The translations under genes were made by a program, and so were the position numbers. A DNA stretch of 64,000 nucleotides from positions 1 through 64,000 of the forward strand of contig JAUYTU010000018.1 in the NCBI GenBank assembly GCA_030694975.1, read 5' to 3'. Source of the stretch: Erysipelotrichaceae bacterium. Its GTDB lineage: Bacteria; Bacillota_I; Bacilli_A; Erysipelotrichales; Erysipelotrichaceae. Positions 1 to 39,923 of the stretch are shown here, one piece after another; within the stretch, counting starts at the first letter, position 1, and the number at the start of each line of letters is the position of its first letter. Under the pieces are notes generated by a model. That model worked only from the letters and a program-made list of their open reading frames with translations. It was not told where the DNA came from and ran no database searches.

Positions 1-363
1 TGCACGACTGATTTATGTGCAACTCTACTCTACTGCATTTTGAGGTGGCTCTCAAGTTCCGATGTTGTGGCTCTAAAAGAGCGACGCACTGGCTCTCACT
101 TGAGCGATGGGGTGGTATTATTTATGCGCTGTATGCACTTATGGGTCTGGATAACGATATTGCTAGTCGCGATAATTATTGTTGTATTCTTTATTTATAG
201 AAATACTCGTCTGAAAGACAAGTGATACTGAGCATTCCCACTAGCCGTCTTCTTGATCGTCATTCCAGTCATCTGCCTGGAACTCAACGACAAGCTGATC
301 ATCGCCTTCGTTATTCGTGAGGGTGTTGTGTTGGAATTGATGGAACATCATTAATCAGAAACT

Positions 364-386
364 GGATGGCAATGCCATCCTTTTTT
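364..386 (+). terminator. Intrinsic terminator
   Basis: A 7-bp perfect stem (GGATGGC/GCCATCC) with a 3-nt loop is followed by six T. The identical 17-nt hairpin recurs at 8785-8801 at the far end of the next gene block. Confidence 0.75.
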
Positions 387-426
387 CTGAACTGAACTTT
401 AGTTATGCAAATTTCGTTTTCTTTAA

Positions 427-455
427 TTGAATTACTTCTATAGGAATGATAGTAT
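427..455 (+). promoter_or_regulatory. Sigma-A type promoter of ROK kinase
   Basis: TTGAAT (427-432) and TAGTAT (450-455) are separated by 17 bp. They lie about 30 bp upstream of the ROK kinase start. Confidence 0.6.
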
Positions 456-488
456 AAAAACCAAAGGTCATCTGAAGGGGGACATATC

Positions 489-1394
489 ATGAATCAAAAA
501 AAATACGTAGCCGCGGTAGATATCGGCGGTACAAATACACGCGTCGCATGCATGGATGAAAATCTTACTATCATTCATCGCCAAAGTTTTAATACGGATA
601 CTCAAAATCCTGAGGAAGCTGTTCAAAAAATCGTGGAAGCTATTGCACAATTACCTCATCCTGTAAAAGCCATAGGTGTTGGATCGCCAGGTCCAATCAA
701 CCTAAAAGAAGGGATTCTACTTTCACCACCCAATTTACCCGGATGGTGGAATTTCGCTCTTAAAGAGGCGATTGAGAAAGCTTCCGGAATACCATGCTTT
801 GTGGAGGGGGATGCAAATCTGGCAGGCTTAGCAGAGTCGGTTGTTGGTAATGGAAAGAATCACTCGATTTGCGTATTCATGACCATAAGCACTGGCATCG
901 GCGGTGGACTGATTATCGATAAAAAAGTATTTCAAGGAGCCCATGGAAGTGCAACAGAGTTGGCCAATAGTATTGTCTGGTCCCAGGGTCCTCAACATGG
1001 ATCATTGAAGGCTGGCGCAATTGAGGCGATATCTTCTGGGACGGCGATCGTCAATCGTGCAAGGAATCTTGGATACGATGTAGAGCATGCTGGACAAGTC
1101 GCAGATTTAGCTAAAACAGGAGATGTTGCTTGTGTTGAAATAATTGAAGATGCAAAGGAATATTTGGCTAATCTGATTGCGATCATCTACGGGATCATTG
1201 ATCCAGACATTGTCGTTTTAGGGGGAAGTGTAGCTCTTAAAATCGAAGGATTCATTGAAAATGTTGAACAACGAGTAAAAAACAAAGTATATCCGCACTT
1301 ATCGGAGCTTGTGAGTCTGGTCCCGGCAAAACTTGGGGATGACAGTGGGTTAATAGGGGCAGGGTACTTAGCCTTATCGAACATAGAAAATTGA
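489..1394 (+). CDS. ROK family sugar kinase
   Basis: 301 residues, the usual length of ROK hexokinases. The phosphate-binding DIGGTNTR lies at residues 11-18, the catalytic-type DANLAGLAE at 108-116 and STGIGGGLI at 134-142. The protein probably phosphorylates a hexose or amino-sugar in the cytoplasm, but the substrate cannot be read from sequence. The Cys-rich zinc motif (CxCGxxGC) that most ROK kinases carry near residue 170 is replaced by a Cys-free segment (GPQHGSLKAGAIEA), so this is a zinc-less variant. The SD AGGGGG precedes the ATG. It has its own promoter and terminator, so it is transcribed separately from the downstream operon, although a shared role with that operon is possible. 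Confidence 0.85.
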   Translation: MNQKKYVAAVDIGGTNTRVACMDENLTIIHRQSFNTDTQNPEEAVQKIVEAIAQLPHPVKAIGVGSPGPINLKEGILLSPPNLPGWWNFALKEAIEKASGIPCFVEGDANLAGLAESVVGNGKNHSICVFMTISTGIGGGLIIDKKVFQGAHGSATELANSIVWSQGPQHGSLKAGAIEAISSGTAIVNRARNLGYDVEHAGQVADLAKTGDVACVEIIEDAKEYLANLIAIIYGIIDPDIVVLGGSVALKIEGFIENVEQRVKNKVYPHLSELVSLVPAKLGDDSGLIGAGYLALSNIEN

Positions 1395-1412
1395 CGATTC
1401 GTCAATTTTTTT
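1387..1412 (+). terminator. Intrinsic terminator of ROK kinase
   Basis: The stem AATTGACG/CGTCAATT with loop ATT overlaps the stop codon and is followed by a run of seven T. Confidence 0.8.
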
Positions 1413-1426
1413 ATTGTCGAAAAAAA

Positions 1427-1440
1427 TGTAAGCGCTTTGT
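1427..1440 (+). promoter_or_regulatory. cre-like site (CcpA)
   Basis: TGTAAGCGCTTTGT matches the cre consensus TGWAANCGNTNWCA except near its 3' end. It abuts the -35 box of the operon promoter, a position that suits catabolite repression. Confidence 0.6.
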
Positions 1441-1468
1441 TGACAAGGAATATTTGCTGTGTTAGTAT
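1440..1468 (+). promoter_or_regulatory. Sigma-A promoter of the hydantoinase-like operon
   Basis: TTGACA (1440-1445), a 17-bp spacer and TAGTAT (1463-1468): a near-consensus promoter about 50 bp upstream of the ROK-like regulator. Confidence 0.8.
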
Positions 1469-1475
1469 AGGAATA

Positions 1476-1500
1476 ACTTATTTCAGATACTAAAATAAGT
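1476..1500. promoter_or_regulatory. Candidate operator for the ROK-like regulator
   Basis: A perfect inverted repeat ACTTATTT/AAATAAGT with a 9-bp centre sits just downstream of the -10 box, around the expected transcription start. This suits an autoregulated repressor. That the ROK-like protein binds here is inference. Confidence 0.5.
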
Positions 1501-1517
1501 ATCGGAGGAATGTAAAT

Positions 1518-2594
1518 ATGCAAAAACACTCATTGCAAGATGTAAAGAGTCAAAATAAAGAACTTCTTCTAAAACTGATCTTCGAAAATCCGGATATTTC
1601 TCGGCTGGATTTAGCCAATCTCAGTGGGTTAAGCGGAGGGACAATAACCAGTTTGGTCAATGAGTTGATGCACGAAAGCAAAATTCATGAAACTGCCAAG
1701 ATGATTTCAACAGGCGGCAGAAGAAAGACCGGGTTAAAAATTGTCAGTGAGTCCGGGAATATCATTATTTTTGAAATCAAGCAAAGAAGTTTGGTACAGA
1801 AAATCTATGACAGTAATGATGAGTTAACTTTAGAAGAAAAGTATGGCATGCCATATTTAAATGGAAACTTTATTGTTGAGAAAATTATTGAAGTGTGTAA
1901 CAAACGTCCAACGCTTCCATTAAAAATTGGAATTCTAATTGAGGAGAACATCCGTGAAACTGAGATTTCCTACATGTTATCAACCGGGGTTTCGCAAGAA
2001 AACATTTCACTAGAATCGGCGTTGCGCATGTTTACAAACATAGAATTTGTCATTGATTACTCATTGAAATACAGCCTCAACGAAGAAGTACTGAAAGTAA
2101 AATTTAACAAAGTTGAACGCTATGCTTACATATCGGTTGACTATCAGTTGAATACACAAGTTTTTGAAAAGGGAAGTCCTGCTACATTTGTGCCAAACAC
2201 CTTGTTACAGTTAGTTGAACTGTTGACTCAAAGAGGTATGTCGGACAAGTGGGCAACCGCCATGGGATATCGCAATGACCTAAGAGTTGTCACCAATGCG
2301 GAGGGAATGGATGTTTATGACGGATCTAGAAAATCCAAAGGTCAGTATCAGAGCTTAATCGAATGTCTGGCGGTTGTGATTGAAACGATGTTGATATTCT
2401 ATCGACTCGATGCAATCTTTCTGACCGGTAAAGCAAAGTCAATGCCAACACTTGATCAGGATTTGGCTATCGCTTTAAGCAAAAAATCTAAATCTAGAGA
2501 GTCACTGTTAATCAAAACCATTGTCGAAATGAAGGGCAATTCCGCTAAAAATATGCATAGGGTCTTAATGGAGAGTCAACTCATAGGAGGGTAA
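1518..2594 (+). CDS. ROK/NagC-XylR-like transcriptional regulator
   Basis: 358 residues. The N-terminal ~75 residues form a MarR-type winged helix typical of NagC/XylR regulators, with the hallmark wing sequence STGGRRKTGLKI. The following region has the length of a ROK domain, but the phosphate-binding GGT and zinc Cys motifs are not recognisable. The effector domain has therefore diverged and is not expected to be a kinase. It is the first gene of an operon reading into a TIM-barrel protein, permease and hydantoinase-like enzyme, so it probably represses them and responds to the pathway substrate. The SD GGAGG is upstream. Confidence 0.75.
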   Translation: MQKHSLQDVKSQNKELLLKLIFENPDISRLDLANLSGLSGGTITSLVNELMHESKIHETAKMISTGGRRKTGLKIVSESGNIIIFEIKQRSLVQKIYDSNDELTLEEKYGMPYLNGNFIVEKIIEVCNKRPTLPLKIGILIEENIRETEISYMLSTGVSQENISLESALRMFTNIEFVIDYSLKYSLNEEVLKVKFNKVERYAYISVDYQLNTQVFEKGSPATFVPNTLLQLVELLTQRGMSDKWATAMGYRNDLRVVTNAEGMDVYDGSRKSKGQYQSLIECLAVVIETMLIFYRLDAIFLTGKAKSMPTLDQDLAIALSKKSKSRESLLIKTIVEMKGNSAKNMHRVLMESQLIGG

Positions 2595-37581: not shown

Positions 37582-38790
37582 TTATTTCCCTTTGTAGAAT
37601 ATTTGTGCCCAGTGATAACGACCATTTTCGCCTTTGGTGATACCAACGCCGATATCTGAGTAGTTGTCACTTAGTAAGTTTTTACGGTGACCTTCAGATT
37701 TCATCCAAGCTGCAACAACTTCAGCAGGGCTCTTATAACCCAATGCCAAGTTTTCACCGATATAACGATATGTGAAATCAGGGTCATCGAATACTGTGAA
37801 GAAACGGCTGCCATCCGGACGTGTATGTGAGAATGAAACAACGAGTTCTTCGGAGCGGATTTGTGCACCGGCCGCAATGTAGTTGTTGTATTTCAATATG
37901 GATTTACCGGCTTTTTCGCGTTCGATATTGGTCAAGCGAGCGACTTCCAGTTTCCAATCGGATTGTGGAGTCATGGATACGGCTGATTTAATCGTAAGAG
38001 TTACGGAATCTTTAAATCCGCCATCTTTAGAAGTTACGGTAATCGTGACTTCTCCGGTAGATTTTGCGCTAACAAGGCCACTGGTCGAAACTGTAGCAAT
38101 ATCAGCATTTGAAGTTTGCCAAGTGACGGATTTGTCGGTAGCATTGGTAGGACTGACGGTATCGGCTAAGGTCGTTGTTTTATTAATGTAGAGTGAATCT
38201 ACGGAAGATTTAAGTGTAATACCTGTTACAGAAATGTTTGCGACTGTAACTGGTGCCGGTGCAGGAGCAGGTTTAGCAACGGGTGCCGGGGTCGGTTTTG
38301 CAACTGTTACCGGGGCCGGTTTAGGTGTCGGTGTTACGGTCTTTACAGGCGTTACAACAACAACGGGTTCTGAAATTGTAATTTTGAATGCTGATTCAAG
38401 TCTGACGGATTTACTTGATACATGGACTGTCACTTCACCGGCAGATAAAGCAAATAAGTATCCATCTTGATCGATGGTAGCGATCAGGCTGTCAACACTG
38501 TATACCAAATCTTCGGGTATCAGGGATGGGATGTTGGCGGTAACTTTCATTTGAATAGCATCGCCGATGGTCAGCTGATTTTTTGAAGCATTTAATTGAA
38601 GATATGAAAGTTGAGGTGTGACACTCTCTGGTTTCACTTGATTGACTGTTTGATTGACTATATTATTTTGTACGACCAAAAGATTGTTCTGTTCACTTTC
38701 TTTGGCTATAGTTCTCGGTTGAGCAACAATAATCGCTATGGCAGATACCAAGATTAATGTCGTTAGTCCGGCGATGATTTTTTTAAACAT
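37582..38790 (-). CDS. Secreted Ig-like (BIG2) and CAP-domain protein
   Basis: 402 residues. Signal peptide or single N-terminal anchor (about 4-24), a BIG2-like domain (about 60-140: SYLQLNASKNQLTIGDAI...), a Pro/Ala/Lys/Thr linker (VTVAKPTPAPVAKPAPAPAP, about 155-185), a second BIG2 domain (ISVTGITLKSSVDSLYI..., about 190-268), and a C-terminal CAP/SCP domain (about 275-402) with FSHTRPDGSRFF, ENLALGY, AWMKSEGHRKNLL and HWAQIF. It is exported and probably acts at the cell surface or in the matrix. Three c-di-GMP aptamers sit upstream, so expression should follow the second messenger. The SD GGGAGG is 7 nt before the ATG. Confidence 0.9.
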   Translation of the reverse strand: MFKKIIAGLTTLILVSAIAIIVAQPRTIAKESEQNNLLVVQNNIVNQTVNQVKPESVTPQLSYLQLNASKNQLTIGDAIQMKVTANIPSLIPEDLVYSVDSLIATIDQDGYLFALSAGEVTVHVSSKSVRLESAFKITISEPVVVVTPVKTVTPTPKPAPVTVAKPTPAPVAKPAPAPAPVTVANISVTGITLKSSVDSLYINKTTTLADTVSPTNATDKSVTWQTSNADIATVSTSGLVSAKSTGEVTITVTSKDGGFKDSVTLTIKSAVSMTPQSDWKLEVARLTNIEREKAGKSILKYNNYIAAGAQIRSEELVVSFSHTRPDGSRFFTVFDDPDFTYRYIGENLALGYKSPAEVVAAWMKSEGHRKNLLSDNYSDIGVGITKGENGRYHWAQIFYKGK

Positions 38791-38802
38791 GATATTCCTC
38801 CC

Positions 38803-38822
38803 GTGTTCTGAAAAAAGAACAC
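38803..38822 (-). promoter_or_regulatory. Hairpin next to the SD of the CAP gene
   Basis: On the minus strand GTGTTCT and AGAACAC frame a TTTTTTC loop; SD GGGAGG follows directly. GTGTTCT can alternatively pair with GAACA upstream of the third aptamer, so it is a plausible switching element. Confidence 0.6.
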
Positions 38823-38829
38823 TTCCTTT

Positions 38830-38898
38830 GGAAACTGGCTACCACCCCGGATGGGAAGGCCCTATAGCTTTGCGTCCTACTCTTTCGAATAGTTTGCC
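38830..38898 (-). ncRNA. Cyclic-di-GMP-I riboswitch aptamer, copy nearest the gene
   Basis: On the minus strand this is GGCAAAC, GAAA tetraloop, GGACGCAAAGCTATAGGG, and GGTAGCCAG, the conserved core of GEMM-I (RF01051), including the GACGCAAAGC stretch. GAACA and TGTTC flank it and could close a helix around it. Confidence 0.9.
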
Positions 38899-38963
38899 GT
38901 TGTCAGTAAATTGTTCAGAATTCTTGGGAGATGGTTCTTAGTAACAAAAAGAACAATCTCTTT

Positions 38964-39032
38964 GGAAACTGGCTGCCATCCCGAATGGGAAGGCCCTATA
39001 GCTTTGCGTCCTACTCTTTCGAATAGTTTGCC
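38964..39032 (-). ncRNA. Cyclic-di-GMP-I riboswitch aptamer, middle copy
   Basis: Same conserved core as the neighbouring copies (GGCAAAC, GACGCAAAGC, GGCAGCCAG), flanked by GAACA and TGTTC. TGTTC is followed by T5, so a closed flanking helix could act as a terminator. Confidence 0.9.
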
Positions 39033-39095
39033 TTTATCAGTAAAATGTTCAAAGAATCAACATCTGTGATAAAAATGAAAAAAGAACGTTATCTT

Positions 39096-39164
39096 GGAAA
39101 CTGGCTGCCACCCCAAATGGGAAGGCCCTATAGCTTTGCGTCCTATTCTTTCAAATAGTTTGCC
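39096..39164 (-). ncRNA. Cyclic-di-GMP-I riboswitch aptamer, first copy in the transcript
   Basis: Same core, with small changes in helix P1b (TTTGAAAGAA instead of TTCGAAAGAG) that keep pairing. Flanked by GAAC and GTTC-T6. The three aptamers repeat with periods of 132 and 134 nt. Confidence 0.9.
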
Positions 39165-39311
39165 TTTTCATTAAGTTGTTCTTTGCATACAAATATTAAC
39201 ATAGAATACTATTAAAGAAAAGGGAATTGCAGTGATTTCTCGAGCGTTTTGCATATTTTGTCATGAAAATGTCATTAAATGCTCACATATGGTTAATTAT
39301 TTGAGTAAATT

Positions 39312-39923
39312 CTATTCGCTGATGTAAGACATATCACTTAATCGTTTAATGAAGTGCTTACCATCATTGTTTTCGATCATAAAACTCACACCACCGGCTA
39401 AGCCAAACATTTCAGCTTTATTGATCGATTCGACATCCAGTCCAAGCCACATGGCATTAAAAACACTCAGCAAGTCTCCGTGGGAAACAATAATAATATA
39501 CTCATCCGGACTGTTTGTTATCTTCTGAAAAAATGGATACAATCTGTTCCATTCATCCCTTCTGCTTTCTGCATCAGAAAACATTCGGTCATCAACAGTC
39601 CTCTCTTGACATTCCATATTTTCTTTTAACCATTGTACAGATTTCCCGACACATTTCCCAAGATTTCGCTCTCTTAATTCATAGGATAAGATCGGAGCAC
39701 AATCAAAATATTTACCAACAATCTCAGCCGTCTGAACAGCGCGTTTTAAATCAGAGCTATACATAACTATACTTTTTTCTAACAAATCATTTGACAGTTT
39801 GCGACCGATGTTTTCGGCTTGTGACTTACCGGTTTCAGATAAATCCCAATCCGTCCAAGATCCTACCATGCCATTGGTATGATGAATCGATTGTGTATGC
39901 TGAATTGTAATGATCGTTTTCAT
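39312..39923 (-). CDS. Histidine phosphatase family protein with altered RHG motif
   Basis: 203 residues. The N terminus is IQHTQSIHHTNG instead of RHGxT, so the nucleophile His (residue 9) remains but the preceding Arg is Gln. SSDLKRAVQTAE, RERNLG and VSHGDLLSVF supply the usual second Arg, acid and second His. The family removes phosphate from small molecules or proteins. The lost Arg may lower activity. SD AAGGAG on the minus strand. Confidence 0.8.
   Translation of the reverse strand: MKTIITIQHTQSIHHTNGMVGSWTDWDLSETGKSQAENIGRKLSNDLLEKSIVMYSSDLKRAVQTAEIVGKYFDCAPILSYELRERNLGKCVGKSVQWLKENMECQERTVDDRMFSDAESRRDEWNRLYPFFQKITNSPDEYIIIVSHGDLLSVFNAMWLGLDVESINKAEMFGLAGGVSFMIENNDGKHFIKRLSDMSYISE

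Follow-up and report, generated by a model that had tools for sequence, protein, structure and literature searches.

Why is a single gene for a putative secreted protein preceded by three aptamers for the same second messenger, and do these aptamers act one by one or as a coupled device? The question arises from the window (the whole stretch of 64,000 nucleotides of DNA that was analyzed), which belongs to contig C10 of a 2.19-Mb assembly (G000) with 42 contigs. A first-pass annotation had described three intact class I cyclic-di-GMP (c-di-GMP-I) aptamers of 69 nt, repeating every 132-134 nt, in the single leader of a gene for an Ig/CAP protein. This description was borne out when the organism's own genome was searched with the Rfam covariance model RF01051, which returned three matches of 66 to 72 bits (gathering score 35 bits, exceeded by all three copies) with E-values of 4e-14 to 7e-13. 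The aptamers and the gene that they precede are all on the minus strand:

39093 to 39174, minus strand: c-di-GMP-I aptamer copy 1 (RF01051 67.5 bits; G20/A47/C92).
38961 to 39042, minus strand: c-di-GMP-I aptamer copy 2 (RF01051 71.5 bits; RF03167 63.3 bits, but with A47 rather than G47).
38827 to 38908, minus strand: c-di-GMP-I aptamer copy 3 (RF01051 66.3 bits; RF03167 60.0 bits, but with A47).
37582 to 38790, minus strand: regulated gene, encoding 402 amino acids with an N-terminal hydrophobic segment, a Big_2 Ig-like domain, and a C-terminal CAP domain.

The measured spacing is 134 and 132 nt, and the reported size matches the core if this is counted from GCAAAC through the final CC (68-69 nt per copy; the Rfam matches span 82 nt). 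The three same-strand aptamers fall within 350 nt, with one promoter-like block upstream, and copy 3 ends 36 nt upstream of the start codon of the CAP gene. Domain matches for the gene product (Big_2, 2.9e-21; CAP, 1.2e-17) likewise agree with the protein type named in the annotation. The 402-aa protein has the hydrophobic N-terminal segment, but no sortase-type anchor was seen, and the surface location named in the annotation is a putative one. Upstream, the next gene on this strand encodes a histidine phosphatase-family protein and ends at 39312, and contig C10 holds no c-di-GMP-I aptamer besides these three. A second CAP-domain paralogue (43% identity) lies just past the window, at 68645-69238 of the same contig on the plus strand.

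The ligand contacts G20, A47, and C92 are present in all three copies and in all copies of four congeners, by a residue numbering that we take to carry over from the Vc2 aptamer. With these contacts in place, canonical recognition of c-di-GMP by the three copies is expected. Copies 2 and 3 barely exceed the cut-off of the Rfam c-di-GMP-I-GGC family (RF03167; 60-63 bits against 59). However, the consensus of that family in the Rfam alignments has G at position 47 (GACGCG), whereas all window copies have A47 (GACGCA), which rules out the GGC label. Position 20 is also the site at which cGAMP riboswitches carry an A. The E-values, together with the matching array in four other congeners, exclude a chance origin of the aptamers, and an assembly artifact is ruled out because the array recurs in separate assemblies with position-specific divergence. 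Furthermore, the genome has 24 GGDEF and 3 EAL matches, so c-di-GMP is clearly in use.

Orthologues of the CAP gene occur in six congeners, and four of these (G007, G094, G138, and G151) also carry a triple array in the leader. The G118 contig stops within the last aptamer. In G063, a more diverged orthologue is preceded by four aptamers at a spacing of 124-125 nt (contig C163, region 1-1800, minus strand: 894-975, 770-852, 645-727, and 521-603), an array known from one 3.6-kb contig of a single assembly. Copies 1 and 2 of G063 have C in place of G at contact position 20 (AAACGCAAAC), a change that should weaken or alter ligand binding. A sister genus (G036 and G080) has two aptamers before a CAP protein that is 58% identical across the CAP domain. 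When the individual units were placed in a tree, the copy 1 sequences formed one clade (support 0.998) and the copy 3 sequences another (0.95), which indicates that the triplication predates the five species. The copies of G063 and of the sister genus cluster by species or genus, which points to separate expansion or concerted evolution.

Across the order, 54 of 316 genomes have c-di-GMP-I aptamers and, among the matches listed, arrays of at least three are confined to this genus and doublets occur in several genera. A search for close relatives in phage and plasmid collections gave just short aptamer matches, in Priestia, Ilyobacter, and one phage record. Leader identity among the five species is 96% in the linker between copies 2 and 3, 88-91% in the aptamers, and 77% both in the linker between copies 1 and 2 and in the first 120 coding nt. 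The stretch at 38926-38945, between copies 2 and 3, is better conserved than the aptamers on either side of it.

The remaining elements of the leader are listed below in the direction of transcription. The strands of each closing stem (P0) were read from the sequence, with conservation as additional evidence for the 3' strands of copies 2 and 3:

39193 to 39201, minus strand: extended -10 element TG-T-TAATAT (the ATTCTATGTTAATA block is invariant in five species).
39178 to 39184, minus strand: 5' strand of the copy 1 P0, AAAGAAC (P0 favored by -5.0 kcal/mol at the U-tract).
39078 to 39087, minus strand: 3' strand of the copy 1 P0, GUUC, running into a U6 tract at 39083-39078 (GUUCUUUUUU is invariant in five species).
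39046 to 39050, minus strand: 5' strand of the copy 2 P0, GAACA.
38946 to 38955, minus strand: 3' strand of the copy 2 P0, UGUUC, with a U5 tract at 38950-38946.
38928 to 38960, minus strand: hairpin B2, GAGAU-U-GUUCUU/AAGAAC-C-AUCUC (-9.8 kcal/mol; in the linker that is 96% identical in five species).
38926 to 38931, minus strand: putative anti-Shine-Dalgarno (anti-SD) element UCUCCC, complementary to GGGAGG (invariant in five species; folding and shuffle control).
38912 to 38916, minus strand: 5' strand of the copy 3 P0, GAACA.
38811 to 38821, minus strand: 3' strand of the copy 3 P0, UGUUC, with a U6 tract at 38816-38811.
38803 to 38822, minus strand: hairpin B3, GUGUUCU/AGAACAC, which abuts the Shine-Dalgarno (SD) sequence (-6.6 kcal/mol).
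38797 to 38802, minus strand: SD sequence GGGAGG (invariant in five species and in G118).

The invariant promoter-like block of the five species ends in TATGTTAATA, a TG-extended -10, and the DNA immediately upstream of the ATTCTATGTTAATA block is not invariant. This block is probably a promoter. The predicted transcription start, some 7 nt further downstream, lies where the stem of copy 1 has its foot, and such a start would place the three copies on one transcript. The closing stems pair AAAGAAC with GUUCUUU in copy 1 and GAACA with UGUUC in copies 2 and 3, and a tract of 5-7 U residues begins exactly at the foot of each. The U-tract is flush with the 3' strand of P0 in copies 1-3 of all five species and in units from other genera. 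One of these, G034 (contig C2, 1501-1578), is a single aptamer with a GAACA/UGUUC-U6 frame that lies some 95 nt ahead of the start codon of a different gene, for a putative membrane protein, and thus this frame is not restricted to CAP genes.

The annotation had already pointed to the GAACA and UGUUC frames, to the T-run after every copy, and to the complementarity of GTGTTCT with AGAACAC next to the SD sequence GGGAGG, and all are present. Formation of B2 and of the copy 2 P0 is mutually exclusive, as is that of B3 and the copy 3 P0, and copy 1 has no B-type hairpin partner. Pair changes lend support to B3 as a probable stem: its outer G-C pair is C-G in the sister genus, and one A-U pair is G-U in G007. 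The UCUCCC element shares bases with B2 and is the only clear extra feature of the linker between copies 2 and 3.

The composition of the array (the aptamers, their order, and their conservation) was established by computation. For its function, we propose at even odds a two-layer OFF switch in which three class I c-di-GMP riboswitches on one leader transcript would control a secreted Ig/CAP protein. A promoter just upstream of copy 1 would start this single transcript. P0 alone would be too weak for good termination, and bound c-di-GMP would clamp it, so that with the U-tract at its foot it becomes an intrinsic terminator. Because P0 encloses the bound aptamer, ligand should strengthen the terminator, which gives the OFF direction. 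Each aptamer would provide one of three successive termination checkpoints. With several checkpoints in a row, the response should be steeper and tighter than with a single one, judging from measurements on Bc3-5, a triple array in the cspABCDE leader of Bacillus thuringiensis CT-43 that is steeper and tighter than one or two copies (PMC4759541). In transcripts that read through, closure of copy 2 would block B2, free UCUCCC, mask GGGAGG, and stop translation. In the ligand-free state, B2 and B3 would form and the SD sequence would be more open. The earlier suggestion that each copy may be a complete switch would cover only part of the design. Each copy does have its own P0 and U-tract, a putative terminator, but the segment separating copies 2 and 3 is the best-conserved part of the leader and, by prediction, makes the SD sequence respond to the state of copy 2.

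Energy modeling, in which neither tertiary structure nor ligand terms are included, gave dP0 values at the U-tracts of -5.0, +0.4, and -3.4 kcal/mol for copies 1, 2, and 3 of the window, and of -2.4 to -6.3 kcal/mol for most congener units. P0 is predicted to be the only favorable stem flush with the U-tract as polymerase reaches each tract. When the copy 2 P0 was imposed on the fold, the pairing of anti-SD with SD rose from 0.24, 0, 0, 0.13, and 0 to 0.95, 0.49, 0.94, 0.83, and 0.97 in the five species, whose agreement is not independent evidence since they are related. The imposed copy 2 P0 also abolished B2 in the full leader, an effect not seen when P0 was imposed on copy 1 alone or on copy 3 alone. 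Shuffles of the 29-nt linker segment matched the effect in 2/60, 3/60, and 1/60 cases (three species). Against the model, the anti-SD effect in G138 weakened to 0.28 with copies 2 and 3 imposed and to 0.05 with copies 1-3 imposed.

Several further features count against the OFF model. With its short length and high A/U content, P0 does not resemble the terminator stems of textbooks, and the anti-SD linker is not present in G063 or the sister genus. The conservation of P0 is expected in any case because class I aptamers in general require a closing stem. A strand-swap test for covariation, in which strands were anchored by hand instead of counting alignment pairs because MAFFT shifted the 3' flanks of copy 1 by about 2 nt, was not significant, as the strands are nearly invariant: 3757 of 20000 permutations reached the observed sum (18269 of 20000 when copies 3 and 4 of G063 were left out). 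With the exception of G063, P0 strands pair no better with their own partners than with swapped ones. In favor of the model, the two strands of the copy 4 P0 in G063 have changed in concert, giving the longer stem AAGCGAGAAC/GUUCUCGCUU, after which UUUU follows. Against it, this stem is stable without ligand (-10 kcal/mol), which would leave little for the ligand to do.

A more ambitious version of the proposal, which we regard as rather unlikely, is that the array is a wired device rather than a set of three independent switches. The terminators would be the aptamers' own closing stems, clamped by ligand, and linkers would relay the state of a copy to the next one and to the SD sequence. In this reading, copy 2 would govern the anti-SD element, and the stem strand of copy 3 in G063 could pair with that of copy 4. 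If true, such wiring would make a combined gate on transcription and translation, present in two, three, or four copies before CAP genes in related species.

The ON direction is a serious rival to the OFF switch, although we place it below an even chance. The array could be a triple ON switch like Bc3-5, in which a ligand-free terminator or SD-blocking hairpin is prevented by c-di-GMP. In the window, B3 would then hinder the ribosome, a copy 3 stem (AGGGCCUUCC/GGAAG-U-GUUCU) would terminate at the U-tract, and ligand would break both; we consider this version credible but not favored. Bc3-5 itself operates in such a manner (PMC4759541), and for each of the other two c-di-GMP-I aptamers of the genome, on contig C4, the 3' strand of the aptamer forms part of a classical ON-type terminator (-14.3 and -7.5 kcal/mol). 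In addition, B hairpins abut the SD sequence in two genera, with the G-C to C-G change, and the alternative stem of copy 3 lies at most 1.1 kcal/mol from the non-terminating fold in all five species. However, a Bc3-5-type ligand-free terminator flush with the U-tract is unfavorable in copies 1 and 2 and near zero in copy 3, the corresponding dTT values for the alternative, aptamer-breaking stem being +5.9, +9.9, and -0.1 kcal/mol; in copies 1 and 2 of four congeners the range is +1.4 to +8.4 kcal/mol. The ON reading thus leaves two of the three U-tracts unexplained. Moreover, binding of ligand to copy 2 is predicted to let the segment that separates copies 2 and 3 mask the SD sequence. Ligand-free terminators from the aptamer 3' strand were tried for every copy and rejected as unfavorable, with marginal values in copy 3 and a few relatives.

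It is improbable that the array is purely translational, with U-tracts that are mere loops or spacers and aptamers that act through the fold of the SD region. B2, B3, and the anti-SD element are indeed the most conserved parts outside the aptamers, but copy 1 retains GUUCUUUUUU in five species with no downstream B partner and in an otherwise poorly conserved linker, and the like-designed G034 unit sits about 95 nt from its start codon. A different ligand for the copies, either 3',3'-cGAMP or the one recognized by the GGC variant, is very improbable given the three intact contacts, the G47 of the GGC consensus, and the abundance of GGDEF domains, and despite the marginal GGC scores of copies 2 and 3; an A at the contact position in cGAMP-type switches is noted in the available part of one survey (PMC9481103).

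A triple c-di-GMP-I array is not new as a kind. The annotation had called such triples rare, and this holds by number: the available part of a 2022 survey reports 347 doublets and 12 triplets of c-di-GMP-I, with this genus possibly among the 12 (PMC9481103). The class is nevertheless already characterized (PMC4759541). According to the accessible portion of a second catalogue, c-di-GMP is one of three riboswitch families enriched for contiguous arrangement, and yebA triples are recorded in Bacillota (PMC12452182). As far as these portions extend, the catalogued doublets and triplets share the architecture class of the window array and reach three copies, whereas the congener G063 has four (PMC9481103, PMC12452182).

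As in Bc3-5, a single leader in the window combines three class I aptamers that are nearly identical (PMC4759541). In Bc3-5, each unit has its own expression platform and more copies give tighter, more digital control (PMC4759541), so the principle of stacked switches for digital control is established. The units of Bc3-5 have separate terminators that form without ligand and give ON control (PMC4759541); no terminator of this kind is seen for copies 1-2 of the window. It also controls a different gene, and its spacing is about 160 nt (estimated via the numbering of mutated guanines) rather than 132-134 nt. Unlike Bc3-5, the window array has its U-tracts after the closing stem and a putative anti-SD element in the linker between copies 2 and 3. 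A literature search for GEMM-I terminators formed by the P1 stem gave no result.

The flgB and ppep-1 OFF switches of Clostridioides difficile share the class I aptamer, a Gram-positive host, and a secreted-protein target, and they use ligand-induced termination, as proposed here; no triple is described in the available sections of these sources (PMC6366702, PMC11477304). In the same sections, C. difficile class I switches, including that of the secreted protease, are ligand-triggered terminators (PMC6366702, PMC11477304). The review, as available in part, describes C. difficile class I switches as uniformly OFF and Bc2 of B. thuringiensis as ON, and cautions against extrapolating (PMC6366702). 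Beyond what is known, the conserved copy-number series and the four-copy array are well supported, and a coupled two-layer platform is possible.

The other two aptamers of the genome (contig C4, 319-410 and 1302-1390) each precede a gene for an acidic protein, and the two proteins are paralogues. At its C-terminus, the protein behind the first aptamer resembles a sortase substrate, with an LPxT-like motif (LPDTS) and then a hydrophobic stretch and a basic tail; the other is cut off by the end of the contig. If these switches are ON and the CAP gene is OFF, the organism may set the two against each other as C. difficile does adhesins and a secreted protease (PMC11477304, available part). The array connects c-di-GMP with a secreted protein of the CAP type, in a clade rich in diguanylate cyclases. 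The native four-copy array exceeds the triplets reported so far in the available parts of the surveys, and the natural series of two, three, and four aptamers before related CAP genes makes the relation between stacking and response steepness directly testable.
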